This document shows, piece after piece, positions 34,543-55,398 of a stretch of DNA of 64,000 bases (its first letter is position 1; each line of letters begins with the position of its first letter). The notes beneath the pieces were generated by a model. The model saw nothing but the letters and a program-made list of their open reading frames with translations, ran no database searches and was not told the DNA's origin. The position numbers were made by a program, and so were the translations under genes. The DNA is taken from the NCBI RefSeq assembly GCF_003258315.1, contig NZ_CP030032.1, forward strand, positions 1,402,001-1,466,000. Reading direction: 5' to 3'. Origin of the DNA: Bradymonas sediminis (GTDB lineage Bacteria > Myxococcota_A > Bradymonadia > Bradymonadales > Bradymonadaceae).

Positions 34543-34593
34543 TTTAAAATCGTGTTCGATTTGTTGTAAGTGTTCAATGGGTTATTATAAATC

Positions 34594-34664
34594 GGAGCCA
34601 GGGCATCCTTGCCCTGCTTTGGCGCAAGCCCAGCCTCGCGCGCAACCAACCTCGCGCGCAAGGG
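34594..34664. repeat. Intercistronic palindromic element, copy 2
   Basis: GGAGC is followed by the hairpin AGGGCA-tcct-TGCCCT (34600-34615), then GGCGCAAGCCCAGCCTCGCGCGCAA-like sequence. The last part matches the 33574-33602 segment of copy 1 with few changes, plus an extra repeat of CCTCGCGCGCAA. Confidence 0.6.
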
Positions 34665-34833
34665 GAGGGGAGCCGCGCGTTTGTAAAAATACGACCGCGC
34701 GCCCCAGCAAATCTCACCGCGTCGATAAGCAGCGCCATCGCTCGCCCGGCAACCTTTTTTTTGCTGCGCCGCCTCACAGCGGTGACATTTCAAATGACCG
34801 GCCGGTGTTGCATCACCGGAACGCCTTTGGCGG

Positions 34834-36306: not shown

Positions 36307-36316
36307 CCTTTGGCGG

Positions 36317-36642
36317 TGAGACGCAGGTCGGAGCATACCTTACGTGCCAGGGCGTCGGCGGTGGCGTGGTCTTCGATGGATTTGATCGTCTCTTTTCGCT
36401 CGTCGAGCGATATGATTCTCTACTCCTGTAGATTCTTTGTCGTCTCAGCGAGCATGTGCGGACCAAGGGAATTAGAAATGGTTCTCTGAAAAGGCCGAGA
36501 CAGGGCGAGCGGCCATTAAGCGGACGAGAGAAATATGAGTTATGATATGGCTGAGAAAAGTTGCGCGCGCGGTATTAACCGTTCAGGCAGTGTGAAAATA
36601 GAATTATGACCCTGCGAGAACTTCCAGAAACCCCACTGAATT
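36317..36642. other. Flank of the IS element, gene remnant and spacer
   Basis: Just right of the IS a minus-strand frame reads ERKETIKSIEDHATADALAR and continues across the IS scar to a stop left of 34824, so it is the interrupted remnant of a small gene. The remaining bases to 36642 are AT-rich spacer before the first 128-aa gene. No start codon with a ribosome binding site was found for the remnant. Confidence 0.4.
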
Positions 36643-37029
36643 ATGACAAATTTCAGAAATAAAATCGAAGCACAATTCTCATTTCTAAACCTTCCCGATG
36701 AGGAGTTAAGAAGTGCTGAACACTCAAATTCAGGACATGATATTTTGGTCTATGATTTGAAGGATTCAAATTTTGATATCGTTTTCTATAAGGACTTTGA
36801 TCGATATCAGGTTCAATTACTTCCGAAGAATCATGCGAGCGGTATCGATGCTCTGGTTCTTCTTTGGGTTATTTCTGAACAAGATAAGTTTCTGAATGCT
36901 TCGGAAACAATGATTCGGGATTCCATGGAATTCTATTGGGAGGAGCTTCAAGCTATTTTAAGTCCGGAAAAGATCGAAGGCACTATTAATGCTGCGAAAA
37001 GTGCGAAGAAAAAGTATTTCGGGCTCTAA
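36643..37029 (+). CDS. Immunity-like protein, paralogue A
   Basis: A 128-residue low-GC protein, predicted soluble and cytoplasmic. It is about 75-80% identical by eye to the 39731 gene, including IFDLNLP-type N-terminus (SFLNLPDEELR), GHDILVYDLKDSNFDIVFY and the C-terminal AKKKYFGL. Its start (ATG at 36643) has no good ribosome binding site. The size, base composition and position in an accessory block resemble immunity proteins of polymorphic toxin systems. No toxin partner is seen and no family was recognised. Confidence 0.75.
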   Translation: MTNFRNKIEAQFSFLNLPDEELRSAEHSNSGHDILVYDLKDSNFDIVFYKDFDRYQVQLLPKNHASGIDALVLLWVISEQDKFLNASETMIRDSMEFYWEELQAILSPEKIEGTINAAKSAKKKYFGL

Positions 37030-37184
37030 TTTAGGTGCCGTAGCGAGTGGACTCAACCCCCCTATGCCGCCCAGACCTTGCCAAAATTCAACCCACCCAC
37101 TAAGAGCCAACGCGTTCGCATAGGGCTTATTGCGCCTACGTATCTGCAGCGCGCCTCGCTCGCTCCAAACTATCCGAAGAGTAA

Positions 37185-37391
<207 letters not shown>

Positions 37392-37415
37392 GTCGACGAT
37401 GATGGATGCGGACTG

Positions 37416-37465
37416 AAAAGCGCCGCCCCGGCCACGCAAATCGCGTGGCCGGGGCGGCGCTTTTT
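37416..37465. terminator. Bidirectional hairpin terminator between the metG fragment and the CbrC-like gene
   Basis: Perfect 18-base arms at 37420-37437 and 37443-37460 flank an AAATC loop, with A residues before and T residues after. It serves both the plus-strand fragment and the minus-strand CbrC-like gene (stop at 37488). The core GGCCACGC..GCGTGGCC is shared with the terminator at 29164. Confidence 0.9.
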
Positions 37466-37487
37466 GTTGAGCGACCTAATATTCTCC

Positions 37488-38030
37488 TCAGTCACAGTCC
37501 TGATAGCCACCCACGGTGCTGCATTTCGTGCAGCGGAACAGATAGGCAACCGGCGAGCCATCCTTGTCGAGGGCCTTGAAGAAGTCTTCCCATTCGCCGC
37601 CCGAGAGTCCCGTTGAGTCTTGGATGGACAGAATAGCCTGGGGCCCGTGAGCGGCGAGTTCGGCGTGCCCGGCCTGGCCAATAAAGGCGCCGGCGTCGCC
37701 GCAATGCGTCCACCATTGCTCTTGCTGCCATCCGATAAACCCGGGGGTACGGAACGCGACCTCTTCGACCACATCCTCGGAGACCTCTTCACAGCCGTCG
37801 CAATCCCCAATGCCATCCTCATCGGTGAAGCTCGCGTCGAATTTCGCATGCGCCGAACCGTCCGCGATACACCAGGGACACAGCGCCTGATCGAGCTCTT
37901 CCTCGGCGTAAACGGGACCCACGTACATATAGCCCCGCGATTCGCCGCAGCATTCGCATTCGTCCTCTGACTCGATGATGCTGCCCGAGGCAATGGGGTC
38001 GGGGTGGTATTTGAAGTTGGGTAAATTCAT
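37488..38030 (-). CDS. CbrC/UPF0167-family protein
   Basis: The 180-residue protein matches the UPF0167 (CbrC) family: FKYHPDP near the N-terminus, then cysteine pairs CECCGE, CPWCIADG, CDGCEEV and, at the end, CTKCS, which should bind zinc. Phrases RTPGFIGWQQEQWWTHCGDA are typical of the family. In E. coli, cbrC is linked to tolerance of certain colicins; its activity is not known. Here it sits among immunity-like genes, on the opposite strand, sharing a terminator with the metG fragment. Confidence 0.85.
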   Translation of the reverse strand: MNLPNFKYHPDPIASGSIIESEDECECCGESRGYMYVGPVYAEEELDQALCPWCIADGSAHAKFDASFTDEDGIGDCDGCEEVSEDVVEEVAFRTPGFIGWQQEQWWTHCGDAGAFIGQAGHAELAAHGPQAILSIQDSTGLSGGEWEDFFKALDKDGSPVAYLFRCTKCSTVGGYQDCD

Positions 38031-38157
38031 GGTGCCTCCTATTTGAAATTATGACGTGATAAAAACTATGAGCAGCTATCATTTTGGGCGCGGGGGGGAA
38101 TCTTCAATCGCCCAAATTAACACACCCGCCCAAGAGGTCGGCACTGATTAGGACGCT

Positions 38158-38538
38158 ATGGAAATTCAACTTGAGATTCGCAATATAAAAATCTCGGAAC
38201 AACGAGATGAAGGCTATAGGATGCTCTTCTTGGGCGACCATGAAGACGAGCGCCATATAGAAAATTACCTAATTTTACAGAGAGCCTATGATTTCGATGA
38301 CCAGGATAGGCGTTTGGGTATGGACAGTTATTATATCGAGTATAACGGCCCAGAGAACGCGGGCTATGGCGTGTGTGAGCGGGTCGTCTTTGATGGAAGG
38401 GTACTCAACTTCGAATTCCCTTCGACGACGGAATCCGAGATTGAAAGTATCGTTCTGACTTTGGGGCCAAAAAACTATGACGAAGCGCGGCTCAGGAGTT
38501 TTTTGGAGAGTATTCTTGGGGATACTTTAGAGGCTTAG
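38158..38538 (+). CDS. Imm10-family immunity-like protein
   Basis: The 126-residue product contains NYLILQRAYDFDDQDRRLGM and DSYYIEYNG followed by GYGVCERVVF, which resemble the Imm10 family of immunity proteins of polymorphic toxins. These proteins bind and block a cognate toxin in the cytoplasm. The gene is AT-richer than the chromosome average. No toxin lies next to it. A degenerate GGA is found before the ATG at 38158. Confidence 0.7.
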   Translation: MEIQLEIRNIKISEQRDEGYRMLFLGDHEDERHIENYLILQRAYDFDDQDRRLGMDSYYIEYNGPENAGYGVCERVVFDGRVLNFEFPSTTESEIESIVLTLGPKNYDEARLRSFLESILGDTLEA

Positions 38539-38594
38539 GGCCCGTTCAGGCTCATGACTAATCACAAATATATCGCGCCAACCGGCCGCCACGT

Positions 38595-38660
38595 GGGGCG
38601 AAAGCCCAACGCTCTTGCAGGGCTATGCTCCGCCCTTCGGGCCAAGGCCCGGCGTTCCGT
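38595..38660. repeat. GC-rich spacer element between immunity-like genes
   Basis: GTGGGGCGAAAGCCCAACGC resembles part of the palindromic elements at 33574 and 34620. It is the only GC-rich stretch between two low-GC genes. More degenerate than copies 1 and 2. Confidence 0.4.
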
Positions 38661-38677
38661 ATTGAGCCTATAAAAAA

Positions 38678-38938
38678 ATGACAGAAAATATTGAGCTTTA
38701 TCCCGCTGCTGAGACGGTCTTTAAGGACCCCGCATTGGGCGTCTATTTTAGACCGCGGCTCACATTTGAGACCACAAATTGCGAGCAAATTTATAGGGTT
38801 CACTTGCTCGGAACCGACGGGTTAATTTGTGCCAACGTGTTCAAATATTTGGAACATAATTTCTTTGGTTTCAAATACGACGACGGACTCTACGACTTCT
38901 TGGGCGACCTGCGGTCGGTAAGCACGATATACTTGTGA
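38678..38938 (+). CDS. Small low-GC protein of unknown function
   Basis: An 86-residue ORF with coherent composition (MTENIELYPAAETVF, YRVHLLGTDGL, DFLGDLRSVSTIYL). It has no signal peptide or motif that I recognise. Its size, GC content and position between Imm10-like and DUF2004-like genes suggest another immunity-type or truncated immunity gene. A ribosome binding site is not evident. A GC-rich spacer (about 38940-39060) follows. Confidence 0.5.
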   Translation: MTENIELYPAAETVFKDPALGVYFRPRLTFETTNCEQIYRVHLLGTDGLICANVFKYLEHNFFGFKYDDGLYDFLGDLRSVSTIYL

Positions 38939-38974
38939 CCAATCATGAGGGTCCGACTCCAATTGCGCGAAATA

Positions 38975-39100
38975 AATAGGAGCCTGGGCATCCCTGCACT
39001 GGTCGCCGCAACGCGGCGAAAACGCACAAATATCCCCCTGATAAGTTGCCCCACATATGTCGCGCTATTGCGCAATTGGGCTTGCGCCCAGACAGGTTAA
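38975..39100. repeat. GC-rich spacer element, related to the palindromic family
   Basis: The segment begins GGAGCCTGGGCATCCCTGC, matching the GGAGCCAGGGCATCCTTGCC of copy 2. It includes GGGCTTGCGCCC near 39070. A further relative, GGAGGCGGGCCATCTTGGCC, lies at about 39675-39695. Confidence 0.45.
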
Positions 39101-39144
39101 GATGACCGGCCGCCAATTTTCAAAACCGAATAGGCATAAAAATA

Positions 39145-39639
39145 ATGATTTACAGATTGCCATATTTTGAAGAGCTCGATCTGACACAATTAGATGAATA
39201 TTATGATGTTGAGATTAAACTGGGCTCAGATGAAATTAAGATTGACCTGAATTTTGAAGTCGAAGAAATCGACCCGGGTTCGATGGATCTCGTCAAGAGA
39301 TCCATCGAAGATATTGAGTCTCAAGATGCCAAAAATCGAGCGCATATTTCATCCGATTTTTATTCCGAAAGCGCGGGCACTGTGAAGTCTTTTATGAAAT
39401 TTCATATCGACGAAATAGGGAGCGCATTATCTGGGATTGTCGACTTCGACGACACATCAAAGAGTTTTGACCAACAATTGATGGAGAAACTCAAGCTGGT
39501 TCGGATGGGCTTTTATCCCCAATATAGCACGGGCTTTATTGTCTTTGATTATATCGTTGGCCGCGAAATTTCGGACGAAATCGTGGTGGTGAATATCGAT
39601 AGGCAGGGCGAGCTCATCAATATCGCCTGGGAGAGCTAG
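39145..39639 (+). CDS. DUF2004-like protein
   Basis: 164 residues, soluble. The N-terminus YFEELDLTQLDEYYDVEIKL and the later EKLKLVRMGFYPQ and FIVFDYIVGREISDEIVVVN closely resemble the DUF2004 family, whose members are often found near polymorphic toxins. Function is unproven; an immunity role is an inference from context. The gene has an A-rich leader without a clear ribosome binding site. It is low in GC compared with its surroundings. Confidence 0.7.
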   Translation: MIYRLPYFEELDLTQLDEYYDVEIKLGSDEIKIDLNFEVEEIDPGSMDLVKRSIEDIESQDAKNRAHISSDFYSESAGTVKSFMKFHIDEIGSALSGIVDFDDTSKSFDQQLMEKLKLVRMGFYPQYSTGFIVFDYIVGREISDEIVVVNIDRQGELINIAWES

Positions 39640-39730
39640 GCGCGGCGGGGATATTACGGGCGCTCTCTAAAATTGGAGGCGGGCCATCTTGGCCTGCCTG
39701 GGCGATAACTCCCCAAAAGACATCTAAACC

Positions 39731-40117
39731 ATGACAGATTTCAGACATAAAATCGAAGAAGAATTCTCCTTCCTAAACCTTCCCGAACAGGCGTTAAGAA
39801 GCGCCGCGAACTCCAATTCGGGACATGATATTTTGGTCTATCATTTGATGGATTCAAATTTTGATATCGTCTTTTATGAAGACTATGACCGCTATCAGGT
39901 TCAATTTCTTCCGAGAGATACTGCGAACGGTATCGATGCCCTGGTACTTCTATGGGTTATCTCTCAGCAGGATAAGTTCCTGGATGCTTCGGAGGCCATG
40001 ATTCGGGATTCAATCGAATTCTATTGGGAAGAGCTTCAAGCTATTTTGATTCCGGAAGTGGTCGAAGCCACTAGAATGGCGGCCAAACGGGCGAAGAAAA
40101 AGTATTTCGGGCTCTAG
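39731..40117 (+). CDS. Immunity-like protein, paralogue B
   Basis: 128 residues, a paralogue of the 36643 product with identical length and the same conserved blocks (SFLNLPEQALR, GHDILVYHLMDSNFDIVFY, DALVLLWVISQQDKFLDASE, AKKKYFGL). It lies 159 bases upstream of metG. The paralogue A copy lies at the same distance from the metG 5' fragment, so gene plus metG 5' end were duplicated as one unit. Probable immunity-type protein; no partner visible. Confidence 0.75.
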   Translation: MTDFRHKIEEEFSFLNLPEQALRSAANSNSGHDILVYHLMDSNFDIVFYEDYDRYQVQFLPRDTANGIDALVLLWVISQQDKFLDASEAMIRDSIEFYWEELQAILIPEVVEATRMAAKRAKKKYFGL

Positions 40118-40276
40118 TTTTAGGATCATAGCGGGTTGGCACAACCGCTAAATAGCGCCCAGACCTTGCCAAAAATCCGCCCACCCACTAAGAGCCATCG
40201 CGTTCCCACGGAGCGTTTTGCGCCTATTATCTGAGCGCGCGTTGCTCCCTCCAAATCTATCCGAAGAGTGGAAATA

Positions 40277-44243: not shown

Positions 44244-44699
44244 TCAACTTGCCGGCGGTTGTTTTGAGCGGCCGCCGTGCGGGAGCTTTCGAATCGTGCG
44301 CTGCCCCTCGTCGGTCAGCTCGGCCCACATGGTGCGATTGTCGGCCAGCTTCGGGAAGAACGCGCGAAACGCCTTGTCGTCGGTGTAGAAGGTGCGCACG
44401 GCCTGATAGTCGAGCGTCTTACCCACCGGCGAGCGCTTCATCTCGGAGACATTGCTCATATAGACCTTGCGCATCATCTCGCTGCAGCGGTGCACCCACA
44501 CCGGCGTGTGCTCGATCGAGGCGGCGCTCGCCTTGACCTCGGCCTGCTCCTCTTCTTTGTCGAGCGTTTGGCGAGCGGCTTCGATATCGCGCATTAGCTC
44601 GCGATAGAGGGTGTCGACAAATTTGCTCTCCCCCGACAGCTCGATATTGATCCCGTGAAAGCTGAATTCAAAACGTATCGACTCATCTGCGCCCATCAT
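44244..44699 (-). CDS. Unknown protein, 151 residues
   Basis: Soluble, mixed composition, no signal peptide. The N-terminus (IRFEFSFHGINIELSGESKFV) is beta-like and is followed by a long helix (IEAARQTLDKEEEQAEV) and a C-terminal helical domain (EMMRKVYMSNVSEM, RTFYTDDKAFRAFFPKL). GGAG lies four to seven bases before the paired ATGs. The C-terminal block resembles a winged-helix-sized unit but no family was recognised. It converges with tatD. Confidence 0.65.
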   Translation of the reverse strand: MMGADESIRFEFSFHGINIELSGESKFVDTLYRELMRDIEAARQTLDKEEEQAEVKASAASIEHTPVWVHRCSEMMRKVYMSNVSEMKRSPVGKTLDYQAVRTFYTDDKAFRAFFPKLADNRTMWAELTDEGQRTIRKLPHGGRSKQPPAS

Positions 44700-44958
44700 G
44701 TTGCTCCACTTAAGAGGTGTTTCAGCCTGAATAATGCGTTAGATGCCTATTTCGCGCAACCTGAAAAGGGGCGTGAAACCGGCCTGGGGAATCCCAAACG
44801 CGGGTCGGATAGGGTTTTGAAAAAAAGAATGCACAAATTGATAAAAAGTATATTGACACCAAGCCAAGGTATGCTTATAAACCTCCTCACTTGGCGACGA
44901 GCTAAGTAAACGTTTTGCCAAAACCAGATGGCAAGATGAGCATACAAAGAGAGATTCT

Positions 44959-45029
44959 TCGGGAATCGTCTAATGGCAGGACATCTGGTTCTGGTCCAGA
45001 GAGTCAGGGTTCGAATCCTTGTTCCCGAA
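44959..45029 (+). tRNA. tRNA-Gln (CTG anticodon)
   Basis: Acceptor arms TCGGGAA (44959-44965) and TTCCCGA (45022-45028) pair. The D arm is GTCTAATGGCAGGAC, the anticodon stem TCTGG/CCAGA holds CTG at 44991-44993, and the T arm is CAGGGTTCGAATCCTTG. CCA is not encoded. Confidence 0.95.
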
Positions 45030-45039
45030 TTCTCTTTGT

Positions 45040-45112
45040 GGCCCGTTCGTCTAGAGGTTTAGGACGCTGGCCTCTCACGCCGGTAACACGGGTTCGAATC
45101 CCGTACGGGCTA
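45040..45112 (+). tRNA. tRNA-Glu (CTC anticodon)
   Basis: Acceptor GGCCCGT pairs with ACGGGCT (G1-U72 wobble). The D arm is GTCTAGAGGTTTAGGAC, the anticodon loop CTCTCAC gives CTC, and the T arm is ACGGGTTCGAATCCCGT. It is ten bases downstream of tRNA-Gln, so both probably share a transcript. CCA is not encoded. Confidence 0.95.
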
Positions 45113-45234
45113 TTGTGAGAAAAGGGTCGTCGAGACCGAGTTTGGTATCTCGGCGGCCCTTTAGTTTTAGTTGAGTTTTTTAGAGTAGATATAGGCGATT
45201 CGCCTATCCATCTTGATAGATTTGGAGAACCATC

Positions 45235-45441
45235 ATGGCACGTAAGCCCGCGAAAATCGCCAGTCAAAAACGTGAGTCGGACGCAAAGAAAACCTGCACC
45301 GAGTGCGATTCGATCATGGAAATGACCCGCATGATGCGCGACCAGGGTCCCAGCGGAATGTACTGGGTCTGCAGCAACTACAAATGCGCGACGATCGTCT
45401 CCAAGACCGGCGTTAAGCTCGAAGCTCTTAAATTGAGCTAA
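45235..45441 (+). CDS. Small zinc-ribbon protein
   Basis: A 68-residue basic protein. CTEC near residue 21 and CSNYKC near 46 form a likely four-cysteine zinc ribbon (CxxC...CxxxxC). The Lys/Arg-rich N-terminus (ARKPAKIASQKRESDAKK) suggests nucleic-acid or ribosome binding. Strong ribosome binding sequence (GGAGAA) precedes the ATG. It is followed by a perfect terminator. No named family recognised. Confidence 0.7.
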   Translation: MARKPAKIASQKRESDAKKTCTECDSIMEMTRMMRDQGPSGMYWVCSNYKCATIVSKTGVKLEALKLS

Positions 45442-45477
45442 TCGCGACCCGTCGCACGAAATAGATTCATCGAAATG

Positions 45478-45719: not shown

Positions 45720-48113
45720 ATGCGTTTTAACTTCCAGACCGGCCTCGGTCGCCGCGATAATTCCTCGTCTGATACCAATACCTGTCCCGCCGCAACGTCG
45801 CGGCTTGGATGGCGACGCGGACTGCGCAATGGGCTGGCGCTTGCGCTCGCGACGGCTTGTTTTGGGGTAGGCGCACCGGCGTTCGCAGAGGGCGGCAGCG
45901 TTCGCTATTCCTATGAGCTCATCGAATTGGGCGGCGATAACGAATACGGCCTGGTCCCGGTGAGCGAGCAGAAGAAGTTGTCGGGGAAGCTGAGTAAATC
46001 GAAGGTCTTCGACGCCTTTAAGCTGCTCAAGGCCAAGAAGAAGACGACCTACGGCAACTCCAGCATCAAGATAACTGGAAATCTTCCGTCAAAAGCCAAG
46101 ATCTCGGTGACGATCGACCCCTCCAAGGCCAGCGCGGGCTTCGCGCCGATCATCATGGCGGAGACGGTCTATACGCTCACCGAATTAGGCGTCGACGGCG
46201 TCGAGTTCCCGGGGCATTTCGACGGCAAGATGGTGCGCGCCGACGTTCCCTTCTACGCCTATAGCTTGACGCTGCCGCTGTTGAACGCGCTGCCGCTCAA
46301 GGACTACTCGGGCGCCCAGGTGCTCTTGCCCGACGGCACGCTCATCCCCGCGACGCAGTTTAATAAGCGGTGGAAGGCCAAGGACGCCGAGCTTGAGAAG
46401 GCGCTCTTTAGTTATCTGAAGAGCTCCCAGGACTTCACGGTGCTGCGCGTGCTCGCGCTGCTTCCGAAGTTGAAGGTTGATTTCCGCGATGAAGTGATTC
46501 CGTTGCTCGACGCGAAATCCCCGAGCGTGCGCGCCCGCGCGCTTAACACGCTCGAGGGCAATCGCGAGGATGCGCCGGTGCTCGCCGCGGTTGAGCGCAT
46601 GATGAAAGAAGATAAGGACGCAAAGATCGCGCGGTCGGCCGCCGAGTTCCTTGGGAAGTCGAAGTCCGCGAAGGCTTCGGTCAACGAGCCGCTTTATCTG
46701 CTCGAGAAAGGCTCCGAGAAAGAGTCGGTCGCCGCGCTCAAGTCGCTTGAGAGTATCGGCAATAAGAACAAGGCCCTGAAGTCGGCGATCGTCGACGCCG
46801 TCGTGTCGCACCTGGTGGACAAGCGGGCAGCGGTCGCGGCCGCGAGCTCCGACGCCCTGCAGGCGCTCAACGCCGACGCCGAGCAGATCGCGGCGCTCGG
46901 CAACGACAAGATTGCCGCGGAGCTTCGCCTGAAGATCGCTCGGGAGTTGGCGGGCAAGAGCGCTGCTTCCTCGGCGATCGTCGGTTACTCCTACGTCGGC
47001 AATAATCTGAGCGAGCGCGACGCCGAGTTGGCGATTCGTAAGCTTGGCGACATTAAGGGCGATGACGCGCGCAAGGCGGTCGAGACCTTTCTGACAGCCG
47101 ATACCAAGCGCAAGCGCCTGGTCGCCGGTGACGTTCTGGCCGCGCGCGGCGACATCGCGTCGATGCCCGCATTCTCGGCGGCGATCGCCAAAGGCAAAGA
47201 CGCCGATGAGCTTGAGGCGCTTGCCTATACCTTGATGGCCGCGCAGCCGGTCGCCACGGTTTTGAGCCAGAGCGACTCCAATAATAAGAGCACCAAGCGC
47301 GTGGCCTACCGCGCGCTGGGTGAGTTGGCCGTGAAGTCCGGCGGAAACGCCCAGGTCAAGGAGAAGTTGAGCCGCGGCGCGAGGAGCTCCGACGCCGATA
47401 TTCGCGGCGCTTCGGCGAGCGCCCTGGGCGCGTTTAAGTCCAAAGACGGGCTCGAGACGCTCAAGAGTTTGGCCGCTGATAAGAGCGCGAAAGTGCGCGC
47501 CGGAGTGGCCAACGGCCTGGCTTATTATAAGGATGGCGAAGGTTTCGAGATCCTCGAGAAATACCTCGATGACTCGGCTCCGGAGGTCGTCGCCGCGTCG
47601 CTCGACGCGATGGCCGCGCGCGCCGAGGCAGCTAAATGGGATAAGATCCGTGAGCTCACCGAAGCCAAGGACGCGGGCGTGCGCTCCAGCGCGTTCGCGG
47701 CCCTCGGGACGCTGGTTTCCTCGGAAGATAAGAAGGGCGTCAACGACGTCATCAGCCTTCTCAGCGGTGCGGTGTCGGACTCGGACCGCCAGGTGCAACT
47801 GACCGCGCTCGAGCAGCTCGCCTCGCTGAAGGATTCGAAGGCCACGACCGGTATCGCGATCCTGCTCAACGCCAAAGAGCCGGAGCTCCGGGTTGCCGCG
47901 GTCGAAGCGCTCGGAAAGACCGCCCAGCCCAGCGCGATCGACCTGGTCGTAAGCGTGCTGGATGACTCGAACCCCGATATCCGCCGCGCCTCGATCGAAG
48001 CGCTGGGTGAGCTCAAGGCGAAGGCCGCCAAGCCCCAGCTTCAGGCGCGTCTCAAGACCGAAGAAGATGAAGACCTGAAGATCCTCATCAAGAAAACTCT
48101 GGGTCGTATCTAA
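45720..48113 (+). CDS. Exported HEAT-repeat protein
   Basis: From the ATG at 45720 the product has 797 residues with a long N-region and a signal-like segment (GLALALATACFGVGAPAFA). The open frame extends upstream, but residues there look random. Most of the protein (about 210-790) is a chain of HEAT repeats (DGLETLKSLAADKSAKVRAG, DSAPEVVAASLDAMAARAEA, DSNPDIRRASIEALGELKAK). It is probably a periplasmic or surface scaffold. Its stop overlaps the start of the DUF192 lipoprotein gene by one base. Confidence 0.8.
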   Translation: MRFNFQTGLGRRDNSSSDTNTCPAATSRLGWRRGLRNGLALALATACFGVGAPAFAEGGSVRYSYELIELGGDNEYGLVPVSEQKKLSGKLSKSKVFDAFKLLKAKKKTTYGNSSIKITGNLPSKAKISVTIDPSKASAGFAPIIMAETVYTLTELGVDGVEFPGHFDGKMVRADVPFYAYSLTLPLLNALPLKDYSGAQVLLPDGTLIPATQFNKRWKAKDAELEKALFSYLKSSQDFTVLRVLALLPKLKVDFRDEVIPLLDAKSPSVRARALNTLEGNREDAPVLAAVERMMKEDKDAKIARSAAEFLGKSKSAKASVNEPLYLLEKGSEKESVAALKSLESIGNKNKALKSAIVDAVVSHLVDKRAAVAAASSDALQALNADAEQIAALGNDKIAAELRLKIARELAGKSAASSAIVGYSYVGNNLSERDAELAIRKLGDIKGDDARKAVETFLTADTKRKRLVAGDVLAARGDIASMPAFSAAIAKGKDADELEALAYTLMAAQPVATVLSQSDSNNKSTKRVAYRALGELAVKSGGNAQVKEKLSRGARSSDADIRGASASALGAFKSKDGLETLKSLAADKSAKVRAGVANGLAYYKDGEGFEILEKYLDDSAPEVVAASLDAMAARAEAAKWDKIRELTEAKDAGVRSSAFAALGTLVSSEDKKGVNDVISLLSGAVSDSDRQVQLTALEQLASLKDSKATTGIAILLNAKEPELRVAAVEALGKTAQPSAIDLVVSVLDDSNPDIRRASIEALGELKAKAAKPQLQARLKTEEDEDLKILIKKTLGRI

Positions 48114-48769
48114 TGGCGATGCTCAAGATTTATTTTTCACGCGTCATTCTGGGTCTGCTGGGCGTGCTGCTCGTGGCCCAGGTGGTCGCGTGTAAGAGCG
48201 ATGACGCCATGAGCGCGGTGACGCAGGCTGATATCGGCGCCCAGAAGGCCAGCGGGCTCAATGGGCTTGGCGAGAGCTGTGTCACCGTGAAGGATTGCCC
48301 GAGCTATCTATCCTGCGAGAACGAGGTCTGCGCGATGCCGCCTTCTTTGAAGGATTCCGTGCCCGAGAATACGCCGACGCTCCAATTTCTGGGCCCGCAG
48401 AGTGCGCCGGTCGGGACGTTTTATCTCGAATTGGCCATATCGCCCGATGAGCACGAAAAGGGGCTGATGTACCGGCGCGAACTCCCCGATGATTGGGGGA
48501 TGCTCTTCATCTATCCAGATGAAGGGATGCGCAGCTTTTGGATGCAGAATACCTATATCCCGCTCGATATGATCTTTATCGACGCGCGCGGCGAGGTGGT
48601 TCATTTTCTCGAGGAAGTCGAGCCGCTGACGCGCACGCCGCGCCGCTCGGAGCGCTACGCCCGCTATGTATTGGAACTGCGCGGGGGCAGGGCGGCCGAG
48701 ATTGGCCTGAAGGTTGGCCACCGGGTGACGCTGAATCACGTCGACGACAAGCATGACGTCAAGCCCTGA
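48113..48769 (+). CDS. DUF192 lipoprotein
   Basis: 218 residues with a lipoprotein signal (LLVAQVVAC, lipidation at C27). A cysteine-containing linker (CVTVKDCPSYLSCENEVC) precedes the DUF192 domain (about 100-205): ISPDEHEKGLMYRRELP, GMLFIYPDEGMRSFWMQNT and IPLDMIFID. DUF192 has no established biochemical role. The TAATG overlap with the HEAT gene means translational coupling; the two products may act together in the envelope. Confidence 0.88.
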   Translation: MAMLKIYFSRVILGLLGVLLVAQVVACKSDDAMSAVTQADIGAQKASGLNGLGESCVTVKDCPSYLSCENEVCAMPPSLKDSVPENTPTLQFLGPQSAPVGTFYLELAISPDEHEKGLMYRRELPDDWGMLFIYPDEGMRSFWMQNTYIPLDMIFIDARGEVVHFLEEVEPLTRTPRRSERYARYVLELRGGRAAEIGLKVGHRVTLNHVDDKHDVKP

Positions 48770-48838
48770 GAGCGGTCCACGAACCGACGACATTGCGCGC
48801 CTATCCCTCTGATTTAGCCCACACGACCGAAGGCGGAG

Positions 48839-51181
48839 ATGAACTCAATCAAGCGCTTTATGAAGTGGTTGATGCCGACGCGTGCGTACGCGGTTGTGTA
48901 CGCGCTGCTGGCGCTGGTCGCGGTCGTTTTCTGTTTTCTACCGCTGCTCAATTTGGTGGGCTATGAATCCGCCGCGGGCTTCGGCGTGCTCGGCGGCATC
49001 GCCGCGACCGCGCTGACCTTGCACGCGTTGCGCCGCGGAGTGCTCCTCGGGCCGTTGGACCCCGCGCGCGCGTCCTCGCCGCTGGCGGATTTCCTCATCC
49101 TTTTGGTGCGCCACGAGCTGCTGTTGCTCCTGCCGTTTTTGGTGCTAAGCCTCAACGCGACGCGAGTGATTAACTGCGCCTACGGCGTGGGCGGCGGCTT
49201 CTGGTTGGCGATCTCGGTGCCTGCGATTTTGGTCGGTCAACTCCTGGCGTGGGTTGCCTATGCGATATTTGCCGGGCGCGAGCGGATGCAGACTCTGACG
49301 GTCACGCTCGCGATTTTGGGCAGCGCCGCGGCGGTGCTCGCCCACCTCGCGTTGCAGCCGCCGATCGTCGGGCATCAATTCTTTTTGGGGTATTTTAGCG
49401 GCTCGATTTATGACGAGGCGTTGAGTCTTCCGACCAGCCTTTTGTGGTATCGCGGGATTCACATGGCCGCGGCGGTCGCTGTATTAGCGGGGCTCGAGGC
49501 TGTGTGGCGGCGCCGGCAGAAGGCGCCGATCCGCTGGGCGGTGTTGGTCGCGGTGTTAGCCGGCGCGACCTTCGTGTCGATGTCGGCATATCGCCAGGAT
49601 TTTGGCATCGCCATCACCGCCGATTATGTCGAAGACGAGCTCGGCGGGCGCATCGAGACCGAGCATTTTATCATCTATTATCCCCAGAGCCGCGCGTTTA
49701 TCGACGCGCGCGAGCGCCTCGCCGAAGACCACGAATTTCGCTACGCGCAGATGCGCGAGTTCTTCGAGACGGACCCGGCGAGGAAAGGGAAGATCAAGAG
49801 CTATGTCTATCGCGACCGTGAGCAGAAGGGGCGCCTGATGGGCGGGCGGCGCACGCTCGTGTCGAAGCTGTGGCTCCATGAGATGCATATTCTGTGGCAG
49901 CATTATGGCGACCATAAGCTCGGCCACGAGCTCGCGCATATCTTCACCGAACCCTTTGGCGCCGGGCCGCTGAGCCTGAGTATGCAGGCCGGCGTGGGCG
50001 TAAATATGGGGCTGGTTGAGGGGGCAGCGACCGCCGCCGATTGGCCGGTGCGCGACCTTGATTTGCACCAGGCCAGCGCCGCGATGCGCCGGCTGAACAT
50101 CGCCCCGGATATCGGCGGCATCGTCGGGGCGTCGGGGTTCTGGACGCAGTCCTCGGGGCGCGCCTACACCCTGGTTGGCTCGTTTGTGCGGTTTTTGGTC
50201 GATGAATACGGCGTCGATAAATTCAAGGATGCCTACCCGCGCGGCGACTTTAAGGGCGCCTATGGCAAGTCGACCGACGCCCTGGTAAGCGAGTGGGAGA
50301 ATTTCGTCGACACGATCGAGTTGGCCGACGAAGAGATGGCGCTCGCGCGCTACCTCTACGAGCGCCCGACGATCTTTGATAAGGTCTGCGCGCGCGAGAT
50401 CGCTGACCTCACCGTGCAGGCTCAGACCGCCGCGCAGATCGGTGATATCGGCGAGGTGCGCGAGATCTATGAGAAGATCCTCGGCTTTGACCCGGCGAAT
50501 ACCCGCTACCGCATCGGCTACGCCCAGGTCTTGATTCAGGCGAAGCAATACGGCGCGGCGCTCGAGCAGGTCGAGTTGATGCTGGCCGACGCGCAGGCCA
50601 CCGTTTTGCGCGCGCAATTGCTCAGCATGCGCGGTGACCTCGCCTGGCTGCAGGCGCAGGCCGACGGTGATGCGGGAGAGGCCGCGCTGGCGAAGGCGTC
50701 CGAGGCGTACGGGCAATGTCTAGAGCTGGGCATTCCTGCCGGCACGCGCCGACTTTTGCAGGTAAAGATGGACGCGCTTCGTCGCCCCGAAGACCAGGGG
50801 AGAGCGCACGCCTTTGAGTTCTTCCTCGGGCAGCACGCGCCGCCGCTTGCGCTGTATTTTCCGATGCGCTGGTATCAGCAAAATCCGCAGGATGCGCTGG
50901 CGGCCTACCTGGTCGGCCGGCGCCTCTGGGGTGAGTCCCAATGGGCCGAAGCCCGGCCGTATTTGGAGCAAGCCCTGGCGGGCGCCCAGCCGGGCGGGGC
51001 GATCGAAGAGGAGTCGCGGCGCATGCTCGCGCAGACGCAGTATTTCCTCGGCGATCTTGAGGCGGCCCAGCGCGGGTTTGACACCCTGTCGGCGAGCCGT
51101 GACGCGACTTATGCCACCGAAGCGCGCGAGTGGCTCAACCGCATTGCATGGAAGCGGGGGAATAGGATAGGAACACCCTAG
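48839..51181 (+). CDS. Membrane-bound gluzincin-like metallopeptidase with TPR
   Basis: 780 residues. The first 260 or so contain about seven hydrophobic helices. The soluble part has a zinc-peptidase core: H363-E364-x2-H367 in GHELAHIFTEPFG with a probable third ligand E394 in GLVEGAATAADW. The remainder (about 500-760) is helical TPR-like (DIGEVREIYEKILGFDPAN, AARPYLEQALAGAQ). Likely acts on or outside the membrane. It is in the same run of co-directional envelope genes as 45720-54683. Confidence 0.82.
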   Translation: MNSIKRFMKWLMPTRAYAVVYALLALVAVVFCFLPLLNLVGYESAAGFGVLGGIAATALTLHALRRGVLLGPLDPARASSPLADFLILLVRHELLLLLPFLVLSLNATRVINCAYGVGGGFWLAISVPAILVGQLLAWVAYAIFAGRERMQTLTVTLAILGSAAAVLAHLALQPPIVGHQFFLGYFSGSIYDEALSLPTSLLWYRGIHMAAAVAVLAGLEAVWRRRQKAPIRWAVLVAVLAGATFVSMSAYRQDFGIAITADYVEDELGGRIETEHFIIYYPQSRAFIDARERLAEDHEFRYAQMREFFETDPARKGKIKSYVYRDREQKGRLMGGRRTLVSKLWLHEMHILWQHYGDHKLGHELAHIFTEPFGAGPLSLSMQAGVGVNMGLVEGAATAADWPVRDLDLHQASAAMRRLNIAPDIGGIVGASGFWTQSSGRAYTLVGSFVRFLVDEYGVDKFKDAYPRGDFKGAYGKSTDALVSEWENFVDTIELADEEMALARYLYERPTIFDKVCAREIADLTVQAQTAAQIGDIGEVREIYEKILGFDPANTRYRIGYAQVLIQAKQYGAALEQVELMLADAQATVLRAQLLSMRGDLAWLQAQADGDAGEAALAKASEAYGQCLELGIPAGTRRLLQVKMDALRRPEDQGRAHAFEFFLGQHAPPLALYFPMRWYQQNPQDALAAYLVGRRLWGESQWAEARPYLEQALAGAQPGGAIEEESRRMLAQTQYFLGDLEAAQRGFDTLSASRDATYATEAREWLNRIAWKRGNRIGTP

Positions 51182-51266
51182 CGTTATCAACCCACGCCGG
51201 TTCATTTAATATCAATTTTTAGCATCGATTATGGCCCTGAGAAGAGCGTTTAAGGAGAAGTATTTA

Positions 51267-51800
51267 ATGGTTTCAATGCGACGATTAGTGATGGCCCTCG
51301 TCATTTCGACGGGTCTTTTGGCCGGGGTTGGGTGTGGCGCCGATTATATTCGTGACGACCAGATCTATAAGGACGATATCGATTTTCGCATCGATGACGA
51401 CTCCCAGATCGAAGACACCCTTGAGAACCGCGAAGTGCTCGACGTGTTGGCCAGCTACCGCAAGGCGGTGGTGACCAAGGATTTTGGCACGCTTAAGCGG
51501 CTGATTTCGCCCAACTATTACGATAACGCCGGGACCACCAACACGACCGAAGATGATTATAGCGCGTCGGACCTGGCGGAGGTCTTCGAGATGATGGCCC
51601 AGGGCGCGCGCGAGATTCGCTACGATGTCCTGGTGCGCGACGTGAAGGTCAAGGGCGAGCGGGCGACGGTCGATTACAAATTCGACTACGCCTACAAATA
51701 TGTCATCGCCGACGAGTCGTCGTGGGACGCTGGCGTGGACGTAAATCGTCTCGAGTTGGAGCGGGAAGATGGCGTGTGGCGCATCGTTTCCGGGCTATAA
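51267..51800 (+). CDS. Small lipoprotein with NTF2-like domain
   Basis: 177 residues from ATG 51267, chosen because TAAGGAG lies eight bases upstream; earlier codons at 51231 are open but unsupported. The signal ends LLAGVGC. The mature part (about 60-177) resembles an NTF2/SnoaL-like cone (ENREVLDVLASYRKAVVTKD, LKRLISPNYYDNAG, REDGVWRIVSGL). Ligand unknown. It lies between the two gluzincin-like genes on the same strand. Confidence 0.75.
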   Translation: MVSMRRLVMALVISTGLLAGVGCGADYIRDDQIYKDDIDFRIDDDSQIEDTLENREVLDVLASYRKAVVTKDFGTLKRLISPNYYDNAGTTNTTEDDYSASDLAEVFEMMAQGAREIRYDVLVRDVKVKGERATVDYKFDYAYKYVIADESSWDAGVDVNRLELEREDGVWRIVSGL

Positions 51801-51881
51801 TTATCGAGCCGAAGATCTGTTTTGGGGGCGCGGCAAAGGATAGCCGCGCCCGGTGATTCCGCTCAAATCTTGATTAGACCT

Positions 51882-54683
51882 ATGCGCGATTTCCGCAATT
51901 TGCTTCTCGGTGGCGTGGTGGCCTTAACCTGGGCGACCGGGGTTTTCTGCCCGACGCCTGCTTCCGCAGAGTGGTTATCGCGCATTGGCATTCCGACCGG
52001 GGATGCAGCGGCGGGCGCGTCCGCGACGCCGGCTGAAGTTGCCTTTCAAAAAGGGGAGTTGGAGCGGGCAAAGCGCCTCGCGTTTGAGCGCGACGACGCA
52101 AGCTCGATGTTGGTGCGCGCGCATCTTGCCGAGTACGACGGCGACCTGGAGCTGGCGCAGCGTTTTGCGGCCAATGCCGAGGTGAGCGCGCGCGACGCCG
52201 AGCTGCGCGCCCGCGCAGCCGCGCTGGCCGGGCGGCTTCAGTCTGAGCTCGGTGAGTTCGAGGCCGCCGAAAATTATCTGCGCACCTTTTTAGCCGCCCA
52301 CACCGACGCGCTCCCGGTGCGCCTGGAGCTCGGTCGTATGCTCGCCAAGCGCGGCGCGCAGGCCGAGGCGAACGCGGTCCTAAAGCCCTTCAGCCGTGCT
52401 TTCAATAGCGGGCGTATCACCACCGCGCGTCAACTGGCCTGGCTCGGCGAGGCGATGTGGGAGATGGGGAGCTTCGACGACGCGAATTACGCGTTTCAGA
52501 AGATGTACGAGCTCGACGCGCGCTATGTCGACGGGCTGGTCTCCTTGGCCGAGTTATTGCTCAGCAAGTACAATCAGGTCGACGCCCTCGCCACGCTTGA
52601 AGAGGCGCTCAAGATCAACCCGAAGCACCCGGGCGCCCTGGTCGCGATGGCCGAGCTAGAGATTCAGACTAGCAATTATTTCGACGACGCCCGCGACTAC
52701 CTGGCGCGCGTCGAGAAGGTATGGCGCACCAGCCCGAAGATGCTGGTGACCCGCGCGAAGCTCCAGATCTATGACTCCGACTGCGCCGGCGCCGTGAAGA
52801 GCGCCAACGCGGTGCTGGCCGACCGCCCGCGCGCGGTCGAGGCGATGATCATCAAGGCGGCGTGTCATTATCTGAATGACGAGCGCCCGGCCTTTGAGGC
52901 GGTGGTGGAGCAGGCGCTGGCGATCCAGCCGGATCTCGCGCGAATCTTCACCGAAACCGCGACCTACGCGCAGATGGTGCACCGTTATTCGGAGGTCATC
53001 GCGCTAAATGAACGCGCGCTGAAGTTGCGCCCGGGGTACCCGCCGGCGCTATTGGACCTGGGAATCGGGCTGTCGCGGGTGAGGCGCGAGAGCGAAGGGG
53101 TTGAGTATCTGAGGAAGGCCTTTGAGGCCGACCCCTATAATATTCGCGCCTATAATATGGTGGAGCTCTACGACAAAACGATGTCGGAATATGAGTTTCA
53201 GACCTATGACACGTTCCGGCTGCGCACCCGGCGCGACCAGAGCGACGTGCTCAACCTGGTGGTGCCGTCGCTGGTGGGCGAGGCGATCGAGACGTTTGGG
53301 GCGAAATATAATTATAAGGTACCCGAGAAGGTTGACGTCGAGGTCTTTCCGGAGCCGGCGACCTTTGGCGTGCGAAGCGTCGGCCTGCCGCAGATCAGCC
53401 CCACCGGGCTGTGCTTTGGGCAGGTCGTGATCTCGCGGAGCCCGAGCGATGGCAATTTTAATTGGCGTCAGGTGATCTGGCACGAGATGGCCCACGTCTA
53501 TCATATCCAGAAGGCCGGCTACCGCGTGCCGCGCTGGTTTACCGAGGGCTTGGCCGAGTACGAGACCAATGTCAAAGACCCGGCCTGGGCGCGGCATCGA
53601 GACGGCGAAATCGTCACGATGATGCGCGAGAATGACCTGCCAAGCGTGGTCGACCTGGATAAGCGCTTTACCCAGGCGCGCTCCTTCAAGGGCATCCTGC
53701 GCGCGTATCATCTGTCGAGCCTGGCGATCCACTATATCGTGGAGACCCACGGCTTTGCGGCCATAAACCGGATGCTTGAGACCTTTCCGGACGCGCTCAA
53801 AACCGGACTGGTGATCGAGAAGGCGCTTGAGACCGATGTCGCGAGCTTCGACGCCGGGTTTAAGAAATGGCTTGAGGCGCGCTACCTTAATTTTAGGCAG
53901 CAGGTGCTGGTCAGCGTCGACGGCATCGAGCCGATCCGGGTGCTCCAGGAGAAGTTGTCGAAGCGGCCGAATGACCCGGTGTTACGCGCGCAACTGAGTT
54001 ACGCGCAGATCGCGAATGGCGAGACGGAGCGGGCTAAGCAGAATATCAAGCACGCCCTGAATAGCGCGCCGAAGAATTCGACCGTGCGCTACCTGGCCGC
54101 GCTCATCGAGTTCCGCCAGGGCCATACCCGCGACGCCTACGCTCACGGGATGGCGATTCTGGATGAGTTCGAGGACGGCTATGAGTTGCGTGTGTTGCTC
54201 GGCTACGCCGCGATGATGCTCGAGATGCCGGTCGATGCGCGGGTGCATCTGGACGCGGCGACGCAGCTCTACGAGGATGGCACGGAGGCCTGGGCCAATT
54301 TGTTGAAGTTGGCCGAGAGTCAAAAGGATGCGGCCCTCCAGGAGAGAGCCGAGCTGCGCCTGTTTGAGCTCAATCAGAATGACCCGCAAATCGCGCGAAA
54401 GCGCTTCGAGCGAATGATGGCCAAGAAGGATTGGGCGCAGGCGGCCGTGGCGGCCGAGCGCTGGGTCGCCATCGAGGCGTTTGAGCCACGCGCCCAGCGC
54501 GCGCTGGCGCGAGTAAGCCTCGCCCAAAAGAACGCGCCACGCGCCGCGCAGGCCTATCAGGTCCTGGTGCGCCTGGTGCCCGGTGAGGCGGCGGCCATGC
54601 GCAAAGAGGCGGCCAACGCGCTAAAAAGCGCCGGCTTTGCTGCAGAAGCCAAACCCTTTGAGCAAGTTGACGAATTAAAGTAA
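51882..54683 (+). CDS. Exported TPR protein with gluzincin-type peptidase domain
   Basis: 933 residues from ATG 51882, with a signal peptide ending PTPASAEW. N-terminal and C-terminal TPR-like solenoids flank a peptidase (MA-family-like) core: H534-E535-x2-H538 in WHEMAHVYHIQKAGYR and E555 in WFTEGLAEYE. A preceding SPTGLCFGQVV segment fits the same domain. Likely periplasmic or surface-attached. Pairs in domain plan with the 48839 protein, suggesting related substrates or a duplicated theme. Confidence 0.85.
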   Translation: MRDFRNLLLGGVVALTWATGVFCPTPASAEWLSRIGIPTGDAAAGASATPAEVAFQKGELERAKRLAFERDDASSMLVRAHLAEYDGDLELAQRFAANAEVSARDAELRARAAALAGRLQSELGEFEAAENYLRTFLAAHTDALPVRLELGRMLAKRGAQAEANAVLKPFSRAFNSGRITTARQLAWLGEAMWEMGSFDDANYAFQKMYELDARYVDGLVSLAELLLSKYNQVDALATLEEALKINPKHPGALVAMAELEIQTSNYFDDARDYLARVEKVWRTSPKMLVTRAKLQIYDSDCAGAVKSANAVLADRPRAVEAMIIKAACHYLNDERPAFEAVVEQALAIQPDLARIFTETATYAQMVHRYSEVIALNERALKLRPGYPPALLDLGIGLSRVRRESEGVEYLRKAFEADPYNIRAYNMVELYDKTMSEYEFQTYDTFRLRTRRDQSDVLNLVVPSLVGEAIETFGAKYNYKVPEKVDVEVFPEPATFGVRSVGLPQISPTGLCFGQVVISRSPSDGNFNWRQVIWHEMAHVYHIQKAGYRVPRWFTEGLAEYETNVKDPAWARHRDGEIVTMMRENDLPSVVDLDKRFTQARSFKGILRAYHLSSLAIHYIVETHGFAAINRMLETFPDALKTGLVIEKALETDVASFDAGFKKWLEARYLNFRQQVLVSVDGIEPIRVLQEKLSKRPNDPVLRAQLSYAQIANGETERAKQNIKHALNSAPKNSTVRYLAALIEFRQGHTRDAYAHGMAILDEFEDGYELRVLLGYAAMMLEMPVDARVHLDAATQLYEDGTEAWANLLKLAESQKDAALQERAELRLFELNQNDPQIARKRFERMMAKKDWAQAAVAAERWVAIEAFEPRAQRALARVSLAQKNAPRAAQAYQVLVRLVPGEAAAMRKEAANALKSAGFAAEAKPFEQVDELK

Positions 54684-54780: not shown

Positions 54781-55398
54781 ATGAGCAGTGAAGAGATAAA
54801 TATTTCCGACCAAGAACGGCGCGAATTAACCGACGAAGAGCTCGTCATACTTGCTCAGGGGGGCGATTATGCGGCCTATGAGGAGATCGTGCTTCGGTAT
54901 CAGGATAAGGCGTTCCGCCTCGCCTATAGTCTGACGAAAAACGACGCCGAGGCCCAGGACGTGGTGCAGGAAGCCTTCCTGAATATGTACCGCAAATTGG
55001 ACTCGTTTCAGGGGGATTCGCAATTCGGCAGTTGGATGTACCGCGTGGTCGTCAACGCCGGCTTGATGCGCCTGCGCAAGCGGCGCCGCCTCAGCGAGGT
55101 GCCGGTGGACGATGAGGGCTTGAATCTGCCGGAAGATGATTATTACGGCGGCTCCGCGCCCCAGTGGCGTGTGCGCGCCGATGAGGCGGTGCAGAATCGC
55201 GAGCTGCGCCAGAAGATCATCGAGGCGGTGGATGAGTTGCCACCGAAATACCAGTCAGTTTTTGTGCTCAAAGAGGTCGAGGGGCTTAAGCTCAGCGAAA
55301 TCGCCGAGGTCCTGGACCTGTCGGTGGGTGGTGTGAAGAGCCGGCTGCACCGCGCGCGCCTTCATCTTCGGGCCACGCTCGGGCCGTATCTGAGCTGA
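54781..55398 (+). CDS. ECF-type RNA polymerase sigma factor
   Basis: 205 residues. Region 2 contains YEEIVLRYQDKAFRLAYSLT and DVVQEAFLNMYRKLDSF; region 4 contains VDELPPKYQSVFVLKEVEGL and SEIAEVLDLSVGGVKSRLHR. This fits the RpoE-like (group 4) family. No adjacent anti-sigma factor gene is present (the next gene is divergent dnaJ-like), so control must come from elsewhere. A strong hairpin terminator follows. Confidence 0.93.
   Translation: MSSEEINISDQERRELTDEELVILAQGGDYAAYEEIVLRYQDKAFRLAYSLTKNDAEAQDVVQEAFLNMYRKLDSFQGDSQFGSWMYRVVVNAGLMRLRKRRRLSEVPVDDEGLNLPEDDYYGGSAPQWRVRADEAVQNRELRQKIIEAVDELPPKYQSVFVLKEVEGLKLSEIAEVLDLSVGGVKSRLHRARLHLRATLGPYLS

Follow-up and report, generated by a model that had tools for sequence, protein, structure and literature searches.

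A putative operon of Bradymonas sediminis encoding two homologous gluzincin-TPR proteins, one of them with a predicted seven-helix membrane domain

Gene organisation of the locus

We describe here a group of five genes, designated P1 to P5, from the genome of Bradymonas sediminis (contig NZ_CP030032.1, assembly GCF_003258315.1), which encode two proteins that combine a zinc peptidase domain of the gluzincin kind with tetratricopeptide repeats (TPRs), a HEAT-repeat protein and two predicted lipoproteins. The stretch analysed, hereafter the window, comprises 64,000 nucleotides (bases 1402001–1466000 of a single-contig genome of 5.05 Mb), and all coordinates refer to it. The five open reading frames, which an original prediction made from the sequence had placed side by side and assigned to a surface-processing or assembly system, were confirmed between positions 45720 and 54683, all on the forward strand (Table 1). 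Lipoprotein and Sec signals were assigned by eye.

Table 1. Features of the P1–P5 locus in the window
Feature	Position	Strand	Remarks
P1, HEAT-repeat protein	45720..48113	+	797 aa; signal peptide by eye
P2, DUF192 lipoprotein	48113..48769	+	218 aa; lipobox by eye
P3, predicted inner-membrane gluzincin with TPRs	48839..51181	+	780 aa
P3 membrane domain, seven predicted helices	48881..49588	+	residues 15-250; AlphaFold2 helices, K+R counts, hydropathy
P3 conserved motif G-Y-F-x-G-S-I-Y-D-E	49388..49417	+	residues 184-193; predicted periplasmic loop
P3 peptidase domain, collagenase-like gluzincin fold (predicted)	49604..50326	+	residues 256-496; 7wss match
P3 HELAH	49925..49939	+	residues 363-367
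P3 third zinc ligand E394	50018-50020	+	alignment
P3 TPR superhelix (predicted)	50390..51163	+	residues 518-775
P4, NTF2-like lipoprotein	within 51231..51800	+	start codon uncertain; lipobox by eye
P5, TPR-gluzincin-TPR protein	51882..54683	+	933 aa; signal peptide by eye
P5 peptidase domain (predicted fold)	53190..53897	+	residues 437-672; 7wss match
P5 HEMAH	53481..53495	+	residues 534-538
P5 third zinc ligand E555	53544-53546	+	alignment
Terminator-like hairpin 5' of P1	45477..45494	+	6 GC pairs, T tail

The five genes look like one operon, for which single transcription is predicted: they share a strand, P1 and P2 overlap by 1 base, the gaps are short (69 bases for P2–P3, 49 to 94 for P3–P4, given as a range because the start of P4 is uncertain, and approximately 81 for P4–P5), their order is conserved in relatives, and a hairpin scan of the region reported no terminator-like site between them. 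The hairpin upstream of P1 probably marks the left end of the operon, in a region where 12 terminator-like sites were observed and 11.3 were expected from shuffling. Among relatives, the gaps reached 511 bases for P2–P3 and 904 bases for P4–P5. With gene starts set at the first start codon in every frame, overlaps of 4 bases were seen between P1 and P2 at five of 13 loci (L117, L118, L147, L148 and L149), three of which are near-identical relatives, and between P2 and P3 at three of 14 (L105, L118 and L133).

Membrane domain, topology and peptidase domain of P3

The AlphaFold2 model of P3, built on an alignment of 61 sequences (predicted local distance difference test score, pLDDT, 93.9; predicted template modelling score, pTM, 0.92), places seven long hydrophobic helices first, then the peptidase domain and lastly the TPR superhelix. 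The zinc-ligand pattern, H363-E364-xx-H367 with E394, was invariant in 34 of 34 and in 61 of 61 aligned sequences. The modelled peptidase domain was most similar to the Grimontia collagenase 7wss (Z 15.2, root-mean-square deviation 3.4 over 224 aligned residues), the next fold matches being M1 aminopeptidases (Z 11.7). These Z scores come from a second pass over Foldseek's own candidates, which barely probes the membrane domain; the first 50 rows of the Foldseek list for P3 were TPR or repeat proteins and contained no protease. The TPR stretches of both P3 and P5 match many TPR proteins and are little informative. A search of PDB sequences with the membrane domain of the window's copy returned a single row at chance level (E 0.74).

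According to the positive-inside rule, cytoplasmic loops of membrane proteins are richer in lysine and arginine than those on the other side. The mean numbers of these residues in the 61 P3 sequences were 2.9 at the N terminus and 3.4, 2.5 and 4.3 in loops 2, 4 and 6, versus 0.15, 1.2 and 0.5 in loops 1, 3 and 5; the segment following the last helix, outside by prediction, had a mean of 2.1. This pattern supports a topology in which the N terminus of P3 would be cytoplasmic and the peptidase domain and TPRs would face the periplasm. Ten of the positions conserved in at least 90% of sequences fall in the predicted periplasmic loops, including C113 and much of the GYFxGSIYDE motif, and none in the cytoplasmic ones. 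Two cysteines, C113 and C517 (the latter at the start of the TPRs), are invariant, and one may guess at a disulfide between them.

Family models cover little of this architecture. All Pfam and NCBIfam stretches of the window's P3 lie in its TPR half (residues 513-745), and the only Pfam models matched are TPR models. Peptidase_MA_2 (PF13485) was detected in 26 of the 61 relatives, weakly (E ≤ 0.1), and the other families matched by relatives were almost all TPR models among the best 25 of 43 and the best 25 of 38 families listed.

P5 and its kinship with P3

P5 resembles P3 in its peptidase domain, with TPRs following it. The pattern H534-E535-xx-H538 with E555 was invariant in 19 of 19 sequences, and its columns were conserved at 90% or above in a 12-row alignment that included truncated and distant rows. 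The AlphaFold2 model, from 12 sequences, had a pLDDT of 89.1 and a pTM of 0.84; its peptidase domain aligned with 7wss at Z 16.4 (root-mean-square deviation 3.9, 232 residues). Pfam recognised TPR models in P5, and Peptidase_MA_2 was found in 18 of 19 relatives (E ≤ 0.01). The single PHROGs family matched concerned the TPRs of P5. Profile–profile comparison of P3 with P5 by hhalign gave a probability of 98.8 and an E-value of 8e-17 over 423 columns; the HExxH motifs align with each other, and in both families the peptidase domain is followed by TPRs. The peptidase domains of P3 and P5 are thus homologous, collagenase-(M9)-like gluzincins.

The two HExxH cores that had been noticed in TPR proteins are therefore not a chance occurrence, given their invariant zinc ligands (61 of 61 sequences for P3, 19 of 19 for P5). 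The earlier descriptions of both proteins are corrected in detail, namely by the seven predicted membrane helices ahead of the P3 peptidase and, in the P5 model, TPRs on both sides of the peptidase. In one family without a full-length P5, its slot is occupied by a protein of 383–388 amino acids with a HELAH motif, which had no Pfam match; a profile of three close sequences of this protein matched that of P5 with a probability of 97.6 (E 3e-12).

The non-peptidase members

P1 consists of an uncharacterised N-terminal domain (about residues 55-240) and a HEAT solenoid (HEAT_2, 127.5 bits in Pfam). The N-terminal piece of the window's protein matched neither Pfam nor PDB sequences. A GerMN-like identity, suggested by a resemblance, was rejected, as no such row appeared among the best 25 of 58 families for 21 full-length members, nor for seven N-terminal pieces of P1. 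P2 is a clear member of DUF192 (PF02643; 107.5 bits, cut-off 27), with relatives of solved structure (3pjy and 3m7a); its DUF192 domain is preceded by a cysteine-rich linker, the cysteines of which (56, 62, 68 and 73) are present in 24 of 24 relatives and missing in some more distant alignment rows. P4 matched the NTF2-like model SnoaL_3 (25.3 bits, cut-off 22) and carries the motif NxGTTxTTxDDY. Long open frames around P4 in four genomes had raised the possibility of a fusion with its neighbour; on re-reading, no joint P4/P5 protein was found, the gene caller having reported no P4 at three of the loci.

Distribution among Myxococcota and in other phyla

Searches of 76 related genomes detected P3 in 63 (E ≤ 0.001; one of these matches, at 8e-4, is probably TPR noise), P4 in 62 (E ≤ 1e-5) and P5 in 70 (E ≤ 0.001), the P5 matches being largely cross-matches of TPRs and other peptidases. 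In 40 neighbourhoods, chosen around P3 or P5, all five genes were found in the order P1-P2-P3-P4-P5 in 13, and four of the five, likewise in order, in a further four (two without P5 and two at a contig edge). All five genes stand consecutively in Lujinxingia vulgaris TMQ2. P2-P3-P4 was seen in five neighbourhoods, P2-P3 in one and P3 alone in 12, while five had P5 without P3, three of them as P4-P5. The full arrangement is also found within the order to which Bradymonas belongs and in part of its class, P2-P3-P4 reaches further, and other Myxococcota have P4-P5 pairs or a lone P3.

Across 188 Myxococcota genomes, P3 was present in 114 (E ≤ 1e-20), P4 in 109 (E ≤ 1e-5) and P5 in 67 (E ≤ 1e-60). 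P3 and P4 were found together in 105 genomes, P3 only in nine, P4 only in four (in one of which P3 is cut by a contig end) and neither in 70; 63 of the 67 genomes with P5 had all three. P3 gave a single match in 112 of its 114 genomes. The P3 and P4 genes lay within 1.5 kb of each other in 30 of the 105 genomes, and in four genomes of three further families (G094, G125, G136 and G162) they are convergent neighbours. P4 and P5 were adjacent, by the same distance limit, in 39 of the 65 genomes holding both; 19 of these pairs belong to five families outside the class, in genomes where P3 either lies on a different contig or was not detected.

A pattern scan of a genome collection yielded 223 stretches, 207 of which encode relatives of P3, and the best 80 were kept. 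They extend to Poribacteria, Latescibacterota, Dadabacteria, Thermodesulfobacteriota, Gemmatimonadetes, a planctomycete, Nitrospinota and Zixiibacteriota, nearly all represented by metagenome-assembled genomes, and in a FastTree phylogeny of 61 P3 sequences the other phyla fall on one side of a single branch. Where at least 3 kb were available on both sides of P3, P2 or P4 was found within 5 kb at 18 of 19 Myxococcota- or delta-labelled loci and at none of 22 others; P4 was detected in one of 35 other-phylum genomes, by a weak match (9e-5). Because P3 occurs there without P2 and P4, it probably predates the other genes, the operon being a Myxococcota feature.

Neighbouring genes

Several genes recur next to P3 or flank the operon in the window. 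At nine of 78 P3 loci, all within one Dadabacteria/Thermodesulfobacteriota clade of 10, a gene for signal peptidase II (lspA; identity from a Pfam check on one locus) follows P3 directly, 18-267 bases downstream. Another gene family stands beside P3 at eight loci (five Latescibacterota, two Gemmatimonadetes and one unclassified), and the one member tested matched LptE; both hints were noticed post hoc. Directly upstream of P3, nine of the 78 loci carry a divergent PilZ-domain gene, the assignment being based on a Pfam check of one of these nine and of one member in L074; there is none between P2 and P3 of the window. Upstream of P1 and on the same strand, L074, L076, L078 and L079 (four genomes, three families beyond that of the window) carry a secreted, lipoprotein-like family of 365-644 amino acids, one member of which had no Pfam match at E ≤ 0.001; it is a candidate substrate or sixth member.

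An extracytoplasmic function (ECF) sigma factor is encoded at 54781-55398 of the window, 97 bases after P5; its other neighbour is a DnaJ-like gene, and no obvious anti-sigma gene was noticed. ECF genes occur at most four genes from P3 at 12 of 78 loci, six of the window's kind and six of the Dadabacteria clade. On the other side of the operon, just upstream of the terminator-like hairpin, lies a gene for a small cysteine-rich protein of approximately 68 amino acids, zinc-ribbon-like by eye (45236-45442). Farther upstream, a protein of 151 amino acids is encoded on the minus strand (44244-44699) just before tRNA-Gln and tRNA-Glu (44958-45113), with no Pfam or NCBIfam match above cut-off. An AT-richer island (33850-40120; GC content 0.47-0.53 versus about 0.61) precedes metG and contains a transposase-like open reading frame (34847-36256) together with a pair of closely similar small proteins (36643-37029 and 39731-40117), which by eye resemble orphan immunity genes of a toxin island.

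Proposed function and alternative explanations

The reading that we prefer, held tentatively and with somewhat less than even confidence, is that P1–P5 constitute an envelope proteolysis or quality-control operon with P3 as an inner-membrane protease facing the periplasm. P3 would expose its zinc peptidase and TPR superhelix to the periplasm, and its conserved periplasmic loops, on the active-site side, would probably contribute to admitting or gating the substrate. P5, of common peptidase-TPR origin with P3, would add a soluble protease to the periplasm, P4 and P2 could be lipoproteins acting as adaptors or clients, and P1 may provide a periplasmic HEAT scaffold. Such a module might trim or remove lipoproteins or outer-membrane proteins during assembly, BepA-like in plan without being BepA; that the clients are lipoproteins or outer-membrane proteins is a guess. 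What the analysis shows directly is the gene order, the conservation of the zinc ligands, the kinship between the P3 and P5 peptidase domains and the predicted folds; we infer where P1, P2, P4 and P5 would be located, what the substrates would be, that a complex would form and that P3 and P5 would cleave proteins in the first place. The role in surface processing or assembly proposed originally likewise remains putative.

A joint function is favoured by the retained gene order, by the frame overlaps and by P3-P4 and P4-P5 pairs that turn up again in several families. Co-occurrence of P3 and P4 in the 188 genomes, although extreme by Fisher's test (p 3.6e-36), was discarded as proof, as this test ignores ancestry; it largely reflects shared descent and neither proves nor excludes a joint function, so that the case rests on gene order. 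An excess of lipoprotein genes near P3 was also considered. In a lipobox scan of our own, carried out post hoc, a lipobox was present in 27 of 142 genes adjoining P3 versus 14 of 426 genes four or more genes away, and 7 of 57 versus 12 of 297 when counted by gene family (p 0.02); with P1, P2, P4 and P5 excluded, the gene counts were 10 of 102 versus 13 of 422. We therefore rejected the idea that P3 generally has lipoprotein genes beside it, the excess by family being no longer significant after this exclusion, which lowers our confidence in lipoprotein clients.

A number of observations weigh against the proposed module. P3 stands without the other operon genes in other phyla, and the lspA gene beside it is followed there by genes for riboflavin synthase and shikimate kinase, for which reason the lspA association may be a plain housekeeping run. 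On an RpoB tree of 28 genomes, taken from 30 chosen by hand for families and presence classes (G094 and G059 gave no RpoB match), the distribution of P4 requires two changes and that of P3 four; among three independent pairs differing in P3, too few to reach significance, P4 differed in the same way in 0.5 and did not differ in 2.5 on average. Once P1, P2, P4 and P5 are left out, lipobox families near P3 number 5 of 55 versus 11 of 295 (p 0.15), and the Peptidase_MA_2 match of P5 (28.5 bits) stays below the cut-off of 32.4.

The claim of a single system thus survives in part. Co-conservation was seen in the 13 ordered neighbourhoods and not in those with P3 alone or P5 without P3, and independent occurrence, named beforehand as the finding that would speak against one system, was encountered both in the other phyla and in the P4-P5 pairs of Myxococcota separate from P3. 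We therefore conclude that there is a lineage-specific operon around an older P3 rather than an indivisible system. One alternative is an explanation without any joint function, in which P3 and P5 work independently of one another within an ancestral neighbourhood passed on by descent: the genes are present or absent in accordance with the tree, P3 lacks its partners elsewhere and P4-P5 is separable from P3. The frame overlaps, an order kept among sequences with about 30-60% identity and the convergent P3 and P4 genes of three further families argue otherwise, and we consider this explanation somewhat unlikely. Alternatively, P3 and P5 could belong to a maturation system that cuts pro-regions off secreted or surface proteins, which corresponds to the surface processing of the original prediction and in which P4, P2 and P1 would serve as carriers. 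A pair of proteases that retain their zinc ligands, encoded in one operon with secreted partners, would suit such a task, the collagenase-like fold is that of secreted proteases and the P5 peptidase weakly matches flagellinolysin (23.7 bits); however, the wide spread of P3 across phyla, with one match in nearly all Myxococcota genomes that hold it, fits a housekeeping role better, and a candidate exported substrate was seen next to the operon only in families with the c14 gene upstream, which makes maturation unlikely in our view. Control of cell-wall remodelling, with the proteases degrading peptidoglycan hydrolases in the manner of LbcA-CtpA of Pseudomonas aeruginosa and the TPRs and lipoproteins delivering the substrate, seems improbable. 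LbcA is among the structural matches of the P5 TPRs (7rqf, Z 15.6), and the excerpts available on LbcA-CtpA describe a similar kit of TPR protein, lipoprotein anchoring and protease; this TPR match is nevertheless one of hundreds, and no recognisable peptidoglycan enzyme was seen among the ten Myxococcota neighbour families viewed by eye.

Our preferred reading of an envelope quality-control operon can be extended to a bolder proposal, which we regard as quite doubtful. P3 might be the founder of an old class of inner-membrane zinc proteases that is so far uncatalogued. Its seven-helix domain, with the periplasmic G-Y-F-x-G-S/P-I-Y-D-E loop and the invariant Cys113/Cys517 pair, would pass lipoproteins or other membrane-tethered proteins to a collagenase-like site roofed by the TPRs, and in Myxococcota the protease would have become the core of a dedicated complex, formed with P1, P2, P4 and P5, for the maturation of lipoproteins or outer-membrane proteins. 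If the preferred reading is right, Myxococcota, Poribacteria, Latescibacterota, Dadabacteria and others would possess a type of envelope protease whose membrane half is covered by no family model, and the operon would point to the likely partners of P3. To our knowledge, envelope quality control in these groups has been little studied.

Comparison with known systems

Searches of a limited literature collection under gluzincin or Peptidase MA with TPR, under Bradymonas and under Myxococcus xanthus DUF192 found no operon of this type, and none was apparent from the titles of a non-exhaustive collection on DUF192. P2 differs from the DUF192 family at large in being a predicted lipoprotein, in its cysteine-rich linker and in its operon with proteases. 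Among proteases, the nearest in plan is BepA (YfgC), which according to an excerpt of one report is a HExxH zinc protease cupped by TPRs (PMC7950410). BepA, an M48 protease of the periplasm concerned with quality control of outer-membrane assembly and with a role for LptD, shares with the models of P3 and P5 the TPRs adjoining the protease on its C-terminal side; it differs from P3 in the seven-helix membrane domain of the latter and from P5 in the TPRs that P5 has on both sides. A Pfam search at E ≤ 1 returned no M48 match for P3 or P5, and their fold neighbours are M9 and M1 peptidases, which is why we do not file them as BepA. The M9 collagenases (ColA of Grimontia, ColG and ColH of Clostridium) have the peptidase-domain fold and HExxH motif in common with P3 and P5; their flanking domains are different, P3 is by prediction membrane-anchored, and no M9 row was returned for either protein at the same threshold. 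With the Peptidase MA clan, P3 and P5 share HExxH and a downstream glutamate as third ligand, although P5 misses the PF13485 cut-off and the window's P3 gave no row for it at E ≤ 1. From LbcA-CtpA, as far as its excerpts go, both proteins differ in carrying TPRs and zinc protease on one chain. Envelope proteases uniting a gluzincin with TPRs are thus of a known kind; new here are the membrane domain of P3 and the conserved operon.
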